Below are positions 3,755 through 6,493 of a stretch of DNA of 35,417 bases, piece after piece. How positions within the stretch are numbered: the stretch's first letter is position 1; each line of letters opens with the position of its first letter. The DNA is from Candidatus Bathyarchaeota archaeon (GTDB lineage Archaea > Thermoproteota > Bathyarchaeia > TCS64), in NCBI GenBank assembly GCA_017883585.1, contig JADGNG010000031.1, positions 1 through 35,417 of the forward strand, written 5' to 3'. Made by a program: the position numbers and the translations under genes. The notes under the pieces are model-generated. The model saw nothing but the letters and a program-made list of their open reading frames with translations. It had not been told where the DNA came from and made no database searches.

Positions 3755-4468
3755 ATGCCGACAGCTGGGAAGGTCTTCGTCTCCACTGAGTACAAGAAGC
3801 TCGCCGACGTCGCTGCGGCACTTGAGGGGCACAAGGTCGAGGAGGAGTACGCCGAGGGTGACTTCAAACTAACCCTGCTCACCGAGGTGGCGAACGTGAA
3901 GGTGACGGAAGGTGTCCTCACGGGGCTCTATAGCTACGACCACGTAGTCTACAACTACCACCGTGGCAAGGTCCTCCCCGCCGCTGCGACGACGGAGGTC
4001 CTCTTTAGCATGAGCGAGTACGATGGCCGCGTCTTCCTCGTCGTCGTCGACAAGAAGGCGATCGCTAACAGGATAGCGAACAGGCTCAGCGAGATCGCAT
4101 TCGGCGAGATGGGAGTGATAGTCGAGGCCCGCATACTCCCCGAGACGATGAAGAAATTCCACATCGCCAACAAGGAGGGTACCAAGGTCATCTTCTTCGA
4201 GAACCTGGACATCCCCAATATAAACAAGCTCAGCCTTTATGGTCCAGACCTCGTCGACACGAAGCTCTTTAAGGAGTACGATAGCATCGGCGACCCCTGG
4301 TACGTGTTGGCGAAGAGCAAGAAGTTCGGCTATACGGTTGGGCTCGTACGCGACGGCTCGGTAACGATCTTCAACACGGTGGATCAGGGGCAATACCTTC
4401 AATACGTGCGGGAGGACGTGATCCCAATGACCCAGCCCCCAAGGGTTAGGAAGGATGAGGAGGAGTAG
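3755..4468 (+). CDS. Hypothetical protein upstream of TusA-like carrier
   Basis: A 237-residue soluble protein that I do not recognise. It reads as mixed alpha/beta, with predicted strands KVFVST, FKLTLLTEV, RVFLVVVD, TKVIFFENL and SVTIFNTV, and no cysteines, membrane segments or obvious catalytic motif. The acidic tail ends with RKDEEE. The start is supported by AGGTG at 3744-3748, six bases before ATG, and a TATA-like TTAAATT at 3714-3720. The stop codon is followed after two bases by the TusA-like gene, so the two are almost certainly co-transcribed and may work together in sulfur trafficking; that link is guilt by association only. Confidence 0.82.
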   Translation: MPTAGKVFVSTEYKKLADVAAALEGHKVEEEYAEGDFKLTLLTEVANVKVTEGVLTGLYSYDHVVYNYHRGKVLPAAATTEVLFSMSEYDGRVFLVVVDKKAIANRIANRLSEIAFGEMGVIVEARILPETMKKFHIANKEGTKVIFFENLDIPNINKLSLYGPDLVDTKLFKEYDSIGDPWYVLAKSKKFGYTVGLVRDGSVTIFNTVDQGQYLQYVREDVIPMTQPPRVRKDEEE

Positions 4469-4470
4469 GG

Positions 4471-4695
4471 ATGGTAGACAAGAATCTTGATTGCACAGGG
4501 CTCTTCTGCCCAGAGCCGGTATTCCGAACGCGCATGGCCCTAGACGAGCTGGCATCCGGCCAGACCCTCGAGGTACACGCCGACGACCCCGCTGCTTACG
4601 AAGACCTCCGAAGGCTAGCGGAGCGCCTCGGCCACACCGTCGTCTCCGAGAAGAAGGACGGCGATGAGACCGTCATAGTCATAAAGAAGAAGTAA
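4471..4695 (+). CDS. TusA/SirA-family sulfur carrier protein
   Basis: A 74-residue protein with the family signature DCTGLFCPEPV. The CPxP motif has its sulfur-accepting cysteine at residue 13, and a second cysteine lies at residue 8. The rest follows the two-layer TusA fold, ending VIVIKKK. TusA proteins carry persulfide sulfur between enzymes for tRNA thiolation, cofactor synthesis or sulfur metabolism. The gene begins two bases after the preceding unknown gene with a strong purine-rich GAGGAGGAG just upstream. It is followed by an IscS/IscU operon about 110 bases on, so a shared role in sulfur delivery is plausible. TusA normally takes sulfur from an active IscS, yet the IscS here looks inactive. 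Confidence 0.92.
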   Translation: MVDKNLDCTGLFCPEPVFRTRMALDELASGQTLEVHADDPAAYEDLRRLAERLGHTVVSEKKDGDETVIVIKKK

Positions 4696-4807
4696 GCACA
4701 GAGCAAGCTCTATTCTATAAACTTCGCTCAATGCACAGTAGCACAGTACAAGCTCTCTCTGAACCCTTTTAATCCGCCAAACCCTCAATCAATATAAGGT
4801 GAACCAT

Positions 4808-5974
4808 ATGAAGGCCTACCTCGACAACGGCTCAGGGGCACCAGTAGATCCACGCGTCTTACAGGAGATGCTCCCCTACTACATCGAGCACGTCGGCAAC
4901 CCGAGCAGCTTTCACAGCGAGGGCTTCAAGGCATTAAAAGCAATCAATAGAGCACGCGAACAGGTCGCTGCCTTCATTAACGCCGACCCAACAGAGATAA
5001 CTTTCACTGCAAGCGCCACCGAAGCCACAAATCTAGCCATAATCGGAACCGCAAACCGCTACAAGAACAAGGGCAACAGAATCATCTCAAGCGCCGTCGA
5101 ACACATAAGTACCGTAAACATCTGCAAGGACCTCACCCGAAGCGGCTGGGAGTACGAGCAGGCATCAGTAGACCGATACGGCGTAGTCAACCTCGACATA
5201 CTCGACCAACTCACTACTGACAAGACCGTCATCGTCACCGTTATGGCCGCGAACGGCGAGATAGGCACCATCGAGCCCATCAAGGACGCCGCAGCCATCG
5301 CCCACGCCAAGGGCGCCTACTTCCACACAGACGCAACCGCAGCCCTAGGCAAGATCCCCCTAGACGTAAAACAACTTGACACAGACCTCATGACCCTAAG
5401 CAGCAACGATATAAACGGCCCTAAAGGCGTCGGAGCCCTTTACGTCAAGAAGACCATCCGCCCACGCCCAGTAATCATAGGCGGAGGCCAGGAGCAGGGC
5501 ATGCGCAGTGGCACTGAGAACACACCCGGCATAGTCGGCTTCGGTAAGGCTGCCGAACTCGCCCAGCAGGAGCTGACCGAGGAGTCCAAGCGACTCACCG
5601 AGCTACGCGACCACCTAATCAAGGGACTAACAACAACCATACCTGAGGCTCACCTAAATGGCCACCCAACAAACCGTATACCAAATAACGCCAACGTCCG
5701 CTTCAGCTACATCGAGGGCGAGGCACTCACCCTAAGCCTTGACGACGTCGGCGTCCAATGCAATACCGGCTCCGCATGCGCCGCTAAGACTCTCGAACCA
5801 AGCGCCTGCCTACTCGCGACCGGTCTCAAACCCGAGGACGCCCACGGAAGTCTCGTATTCACCCTCGGGAAAGCCAATAATAAGGAGCAGATCGACTACG
5901 TCATACAGGTGCTACCCGACATAGTCAAGCGCCTACGCGCCATGTCGAGCATAACCCCACAGGAGCTAAAGTAA
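4808..5974 (+). CDS. iscS: IscS/NifS-like protein lacking the PLP-binding lysine
   Basis: A 388-residue class V aminotransferase-fold protein closely resembling NifS/IscS. It has DNGSGAPVDP at the N-terminus, SATEATNLAI, SAVEHIST, GGGQEQGMRSGTEN, and the mobile active-site cysteine C324 in NTGSACAAK. The key segment normally reading S-H-K-x-Y-G-P-K-G is here SSNDINGPKG: codons 5405-5410 encode Asn200-Asp201, so the lysine that binds PLP is absent. The PLP-contacting glutamine in the HxDAxQ motif is also changed (HTDATAALGK). The same Lys-to-Asp change is known in Archaeoglobus fulgidus IscS (D199), reported to lack desulfurase activity and to act as a partner and cysteine ligand for IscU. ATG 4808 follows AAGGTG by six bases; a GTG at 4799 is the alternative. 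It is coupled to iscU. Confidence 0.93.
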   Translation: MKAYLDNGSGAPVDPRVLQEMLPYYIEHVGNPSSFHSEGFKALKAINRAREQVAAFINADPTEITFTASATEATNLAIIGTANRYKNKGNRIISSAVEHISTVNICKDLTRSGWEYEQASVDRYGVVNLDILDQLTTDKTVIVTVMAANGEIGTIEPIKDAAAIAHAKGAYFHTDATAALGKIPLDVKQLDTDLMTLSSNDINGPKGVGALYVKKTIRPRPVIIGGGQEQGMRSGTENTPGIVGFGKAAELAQQELTEESKRLTELRDHLIKGLTTTIPEAHLNGHPTNRIPNNANVRFSYIEGEALTLSLDDVGVQCNTGSACAAKTLEPSACLLATGLKPEDAHGSLVFTLGKANNKEQIDYVIQVLPDIVKRLRAMSSITPQELK

Positions 5975-5975
5975 A

Positions 5976-6359
5976 ATGTACAGCGACAAGGTCATGGAGC
6001 ACTTCAAGAACCCACGTAACGTCGGAGAGATATCCGATGCCGACGGAGTAGGAACCGTCGGCAACCCCGTCTGTGGCGACATGATGACCATGTACATAAA
6101 GGTCAAGAACGGAAAGATCGCCGATATTAAGTTCAAGACCTACGGCTGCGGCGCCGCTATAGCGACCAGCAGCATGACAACCGAGCTCGCCATGGGTAAG
6201 ACCGTCGAGGAGGCGGACAAGATCACGCGCCAGAGCGTCGCCGACGCCTTAGATGGCCTACCACCAGTCAAGATGCACTGCAGCAACCTAGCATCAGATG
6301 CGCTCCATGAGGCGATAAAGGACTACAAGAAGAAGCAGGAGGAGGAGAAGAAGAAATGA
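5976..6359 (+). CDS. iscU: IscU/NifU-N Fe-S cluster scaffold
   Basis: A 127-residue IscU-type scaffold on which [2Fe-2S] clusters are assembled. The three ligand cysteines are C33 (GNPVCGD, with the accompanying D35), C58 (TYGCGAA) and C102 (KMHCSNLA). The N-terminus MYSDKVMEHFKNPRNVG is typical. The IscU LPPVK motif, the HscA/DnaK recognition site, is kept (LPPVKMHC). The tail is highly charged (KKKQEEEKKK). The start codon lies one base after the iscS stop, so the two are co-translated. In A. fulgidus the degenerate IscS and IscU form a complex with the cluster bridged by the IscS cysteine; the same arrangement is likely here. Confidence 0.96.
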   Translation: MYSDKVMEHFKNPRNVGEISDADGVGTVGNPVCGDMMTMYIKVKNGKIADIKFKTYGCGAAIATSSMTTELAMGKTVEEADKITRQSVADALDGLPPVKMHCSNLASDALHEAIKDYKKKQEEEKKK

Positions 6360-6493
6360 ATGAAAAGGTAGAAAAATGTCCGATGTGTGGTCTCCCAAAG
6401 GGGGAGGACTGCGACTTGATGGTCGGCAAGGGTGAGGCGAAGACCCTCGTCTGTTGTTGTGAGAGGCTACAGAAGAAAAACGTTAAGAAGTAG
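6356..6493 (+). CDS. 45-residue cysteine-rich peptide translationally coupled to iscU
   Basis: A short open frame whose ATG overlaps the iscU stop codon (ATGA at 6356-6359). It encodes 45 residues beginning MNEKVEKCPMCGLPKGEDC, with cysteines at 8, 11, 19, 33, 34 and 35, and ends in a lysine-rich tail. The CPxCG knuckle plus a later CCC triplet suggests a metal- or cluster-binding mini-protein. The overlap with iscU is the strongest evidence that it is translated, since it implies reinitiation on the same mRNA. I do not recognise a family. It could be a zinc ribbon, an Fe-S acceptor or a sulfur/persulfide relay; these are inferences from composition and position. Confidence 0.72.
   Translation: MNEKVEKCPMCGLPKGEDCDLMVGKGEAKTLVCCCERLQKKNVKK

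Follow-up and report, generated by a model that had tools for sequence, protein, structure and literature searches.

The 35,417-nucleotide stretch of Candidatus Bathyarchaeota archaeon DNA analysed here (contig JADGNG010000031.1; referred to as the window) encodes an IscS homologue that has lost the Schiff-base lysine of cysteine desulfurases and lies beside an intact iscU. It belongs to one old clade of lysine-free proteins, termed D-type, that selection has maintained in numerous archaeal lineages. Lysine-free IscS is already known from Archaeoglobus fulgidus; what is new is the tusA-dsrE setting of these genes, and no prior report of tusA or dsrE with an archaeal IscS was found in the open-access literature. 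On balance, the evidence favours, with modest confidence, a non-desulfurase IscS that would give IscU a platform and a cluster ligand and would be fed persulfide by TusA/DsrE. The genes and diagnostic codons of the locus are as follows.

4471..4695, + strand: tusA, sulfur carrier of the TusA family; 74 aa with a CPEP motif, Pfam PF01206 at 84.7 bits.
4808..5974, + strand: D-type IscS homologue without the PLP lysine; 388 aa.
5339..5341, + strand: codon 178, Ala for the PLP-contacting Gln; the 52 D-type rows have Ala (49), Pro (2) or Val (1), and 29 of 42 Lys-type rows have Gln.
5405..5410, + strand: codons 200-201, Asn-Asp for His-Lys (the Schiff-base lysine); position 201 is Asp in 50, Glu in 1 and Gly in 1 of 52 rows, and Lys in 42 of the 42 other rows.
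5777..5779, + strand: codon 324, mobile-loop Cys, retained; invariant in 94 of 94 rows.
5855..5857, + strand: codon 350, Val for the substrate-carboxylate Arg; Arg in 0 of 52 D-type rows versus 31 of 42 others.
5976..6359, + strand: iscU, scaffold for Fe-S assembly; 127 aa, retaining the three ligand Cys, the Asp and LPPVK, PF01592 at E 5.3e-51.
6356..6493, + strand: 45-aa Cys-rich protein overlapping the iscU stop; no confident Pfam match.

The ATG start at 4808 fits a GGTGA at 4798-4802, and an alternative GTG nine bases upstream would give a protein of 391 aa. The first-pass annotation of this DNA had described a Lys-to-Asp change at residue 201, a lost glutamine, and an intact Cys324 and IscU partner, and the translation of 4808-5974 bears this out. 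Residues 198-207 read SSNDINGPKG, with Asp at 201 and SSND in place of the canonical SHK; residues 173-182 read HTDATAALGK, with Ala178 where Gln is expected (HTDATAA versus HxDAxQ); and Cys324 is kept within SACAAK. Two losses are added to that description, those of the motif His (Asn200) and of the substrate-carboxylate Arg (Val350), the role of the latter being taken from Arg371 of T. onnurineus (PMC5426080). All or nearly all of the 52 D-type sequences have lost the Lys, His, Gln and Arg, while Cys324 is invariant in every one of them. Because the Schiff-base Lys, motif His, Gln and substrate Arg are all replaced, the window IscS should be unable to take sulfur from cysteine, and this dead-enzyme part of the proposal is strong. 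As judged by the features of NifS/IscS cysteine desulfurases, it has the mobile-loop cysteine and lacks the Schiff-base lysine, the substrate Arg and the Gln; it scores 468.2 bits against the NifS model TIGR03402 (cut-off 530.75) and 380.4 bits against the IscS model TIGR02006 (cut-off 643.2), in both cases under the cut-off. D-type proteins are thus closest to cysteine desulfurase models, yet should not be counted as desulfurases.

A sequencing error at codons 200-201 was considered and ruled out, the replacement recurring in about 50 other loci. Codon 201 is GAT, at least two base changes away from Lys, and the nearest named records, both Candidatus Bathyarchaeota assemblies (L009 at 86% and L010 at 83% identity), carry the same replacement. 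Since these independent assemblies and the roughly 50 further loci share it, Asp201 is neither an error nor chance.

The rest of the pocket is largely conserved. Within the D-type clade T71, H99, D175, S198 and R233 are invariant and N149 is nearly so; D175, S198, T71, H99 and N149 are PLP-pocket residues. From its residues we infer that the window IscS is PLP-independent, and the loss of PLP binding has to stay at that strength because these other pocket residues do not vary. The same invariance, together with the nearly fixed Asp, would fit a different pocket chemistry, in which PLP or another ligand is bound non-covalently and Asp201 is catalytic, as in lysine-free PLP enzymes. This is considered unlikely, as the substrate Arg, Gln and motif His are lost as well, the A. 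fulgidus protein is reported to be inactive as a desulfurase (PMC7585200), and conservation of the pocket could be structural. An AlphaFold model of the window IscS (mean pLDDT 62 from 14 sequences) was too poor for pocket geometry; its best match was A. fulgidus 4hvk.

Phylogenetic analysis placed all 52 lysine-free sequences (50 with Asp, one with Glu and one with Gly, the mobile Cys being present in all) in one clade with A. fulgidus IscS (4eb5), with support of 100/100 and a single change on the tree. The lysine loss has a single origin within the sampled set, in which D-type genes come from the phylum of the window, other archaeal phyla being represented only by the A. fulgidus protein. 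The likeness to A. fulgidus IscS that had been proposed at first is therefore stronger than proposed, the window protein and 4eb5 falling in one fully supported clade. Between the window IscS and L009, dN is 0.087 and dS 0.928, values that indicate purifying selection. With Asp in 50 of 52 sequences, a shared clade and purifying selection, the window protein belongs with the exceptional IscS already known from A. fulgidus. Close homologues occur widely both within the class and outside it: of 251 genomes of the class, about 81 carry one (a carrier genome being defined here by a protein with 52% or higher identity to that of the window), the residues having been checked in about half. This and the conserved tusA neighbour support the earlier suggestion of a wider system. 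No D-type genes were found in viral contigs or among the best plasmid matches, all of which were below 46% identity.

These results also bear on whether the gene is a degenerating paralogue that has no function and takes no part in Fe-S assembly. The lost catalytic residues are what such decay would leave, but the strong purifying selection, the conservation throughout the clade, the link with an iscU that is intact and the only one found, and the depletion of SufB among carriers make it very improbable.

A second IscS-like group stands apart from the lysine-free clade in the tree. Its eleven Lys-containing members (L182, L183, L185-L187, L190, L194, L195, L199, L200 and L216) have Asp for Gln, Leu for the substrate Arg, and LWPGVEN or similar for RSGTEN. 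They adjoin iscU, and in several loci also a SufS-like gene or dsrE. This group looks like a parallel weakening of an IscS that accompanies IscU.

The TusA-like gene noted just upstream in the first-pass annotation is tusA at 4471-4695, whose product has both the PF01206 match and the C-P-x-P motif (CPEP) of a TusA sulfur carrier. In the window 112 bases separate tusA from iscS, with no dsrE between them, and one base separates iscS from iscU. Directly upstream of iscS, tusA was found in 38 of 52 lysine-free loci versus 1 of 26 Lys-type loci (Fisher p = 3e-9, which, like the SufB value given below, overstates the evidence because the genomes are related and the lysine was lost only once on the tree). 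Gene order kept over deep divergence is a better argument for this linkage than the Fisher tests. A dsrE-family gene (PF02635, E 2.4e-19) lies between tusA and iscS in 14 of the 52 lysine-free loci, and small Cys-rich ORFs similar to that of the window lie 3' of iscU in most D-type loci. Ten of the Lys-type loci examined had no iscU near the IscS gene. As a control, all neighbouring ORFs were grouped across 49 D-type loci. The commonest neighbours were iscU (46), tusA (37) and dsrE (16), other real families reaching at most 14; larger counts in that list were antisense or overlapping frames of iscU, tusA and dsrE. A neighbouring tusA is missing from some D-type loci, among them that of the single-contig genome G306. 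Upstream of tusA in the window (3755-4468) is a 237-aa protein with no Pfam or NCBIfam match, which adjoins tusA in a few related genomes. In two related genomes iscU (L207:4432-5994, - strand; L208:1087-2688, + strand) is interrupted by an intein with LAGLIDADG and intein-splicing domains, inserted at the first cluster-ligand cysteine and ending HN before CGD.

The rest of the genome was searched for other Fe-S assembly genes; absences are provisional, since the assembly, in 100 contigs, has a completeness of 84.65%. Apart from the window iscU there was no IscU match, and SufB was not found in this 84.65% complete assembly. SufB is rare in the family to which the genome belongs and, by PF01458, was detected in 8 of 81 carrier genomes versus 72 of 170 others in the class (Fisher p = 1e-7, overstated as above). 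SufBC has been described as universally encoded in archaea (PMC7585200); SufB was detected in only 80 of the 251 sampled genomes of the class. The search for a second, intact desulfurase that had been proposed as a check gave a divided answer: a SufS-type enzyme was found, whereas no second IscS was found in the 84.65% complete assembly, the window gene being the only match at E 1e-30 or better. Of 14 aminotransferase class V matches, the best eight comprise the window gene and seven others, whose sequences were inspected; among these seven, only a SufS-like gene keeps the Lys, the RSGHHC cysteine and the Arg. This gene (C2:11495-12676) has SGHK, RSGHHC and the Arg, and is called SufS-like because its 443.6 bits are under the SufS cut-off of 475.1. 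With an intact SufS-type desulfurase in the genome, the sulfur may in the end still derive from cysteine. No full-strength SufS was found in genomes G302, G304 and G311. At L201:10530-11723, about 4 kb from the SufS-like gene, two ORFs were recognised by eye only, one resembling an enzyme of tRNA thiolation and the other small and MoaD/ThiS-like. The genome of the window has another tusA-dsrE-type cluster, at C32. At L258:1489-3136 a second tusA in the same genome is followed by several DsrE-family genes, an arrangement like that of a sulfur relay cluster of the tusA-dsrE type.

The conservation of tusA and dsrE suggests that these carriers provide the sulfur, in the form of persulfide. In the proposed mechanism, the dead IscS would hold IscU, and Cys324 of its mobile loop would be a cluster ligand and possibly also the persulfide acceptor. 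Persulfide would reach IscS from the TusA encoded next to it (many relatives also encode a DsrE-family protein between the two), as though the E. coli transfer from IscS to TusA were run backwards. TusA itself would be loaded by the stand-alone SufS-like desulfurase of the genome or by inorganic sulfane sulfur. TusA is accordingly named only as the putative donor, on the strength of gene linkage, with TusA to IscS as the presumed direction and the SufS-like enzyme as a candidate loader. In favour of this mechanism weigh the single clade, the dN and dS values, the tusA/dsrE linkage, the sole IscU, the SufB depletion, the intact SufS-like gene and the C32 cluster. Against it weigh the E. coli TusA contacts, which are mostly not conserved (see below), the 112-base gap with no dsrE in the window, the D-type loci that lack tusA, the three genomes that lack a full-strength SufS, and the largely conserved PLP pocket.

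Free sulfide is a serious rival as the source, because sulfide serves other archaea (PMC12192291). The dead IscS would then be platform and cluster ligand only, and TusA would be nearby for another reason, such as a role in tRNA thiolation or redox control. In methanogens that have no desulfurases, the sulfur of Fe-S clusters comes from sulfide (PMC12192291, PMC10500019), the A. fulgidus model needs no persulfide donor (PMC7585200), and several D-type loci have no adjoining tusA. However, only iscU is a more conserved neighbour than tusA, which often occurs together with dsrE, and the other tusA-dsrE-type cluster of the genome could serve other sulfur pathways. Supply by free sulfide is accordingly held to be possible but rather doubtful.

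Should persulfide delivery by TusA/DsrE hold, IscS would be a receiver and not a source of sulfur. In many carrier lineages the D-type locus is the only IscU system and SufB was not detected; for the question of where their sulfur comes from, the tusA-dsrE linkage supplies a concrete, testable donor. As a tentative extension, to which we give less than even weight, a large part of the Bathyarchaeia may build Fe-S clusters with neither SufBC nor a desulfurase at the scaffold. TusA and DsrE would then deliver persulfide to a dead IscS on IscU, and its sulfur would be released away from the scaffold by a stand-alone SufS-like enzyme or drawn from inorganic sulfur.

Several known systems share parts of this arrangement. 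The Minimal ISC System (MIS) likewise has two components, IscS and IscU, without carriers (PMC12192291), but is described with a cysteine desulfurase, whereas the window IscS lacks the catalytic residues of a working one. Methanosarcina acetivorans IscS1 (MA0808), like the window IscS, is reported to be without the essential lysine and to be encoded as iscSU (PMC7585200). By contrast, M. acetivorans also has an active IscS2 as well as an IscS3, and four genes whose function is described as unknown adjoin its iscSU (PMC7585200). The E. coli IscS-TusA-IscU relay involves the same three protein families as the window locus (PMC2854127). In the E. coli complex the IscS loop cysteine is about 4 A from the TusA cysteine (PMC2854127), so that IscS-TusA contact is plausible here too; the equivalent of the TusA-contact residue R55 is invariant in D-type IscS, and those of W45, E49 and D52 are variable. 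E. coli IscS, however, is a desulfurase that gives sulfur to TusA, while the window IscS should not make persulfide, and transfer would therefore have to run in the opposite direction. The closest counterpart is A. fulgidus IscS (PDB 4eb5, 4eb7, 4hvk; D199K 4r5f), 4eb5 being the best solved relative at 434.8 bits. The two proteins have in common SSND, Ala for Gln, the mobile Cys and the IscU partner, and both have lost the substrate Arg (Leu in A. fulgidus, Val350 in the window). As summarised in PMC7585200, the A. fulgidus protein is inactive as a desulfurase and gives a cysteine ligand to the IscU cluster. The window IscS differs from that description in its linked tusA and in the dsrE of its relatives, and desulfurase assays are confined to the A. 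fulgidus protein; by analogy, the window protein most likely works as A. fulgidus IscS does.
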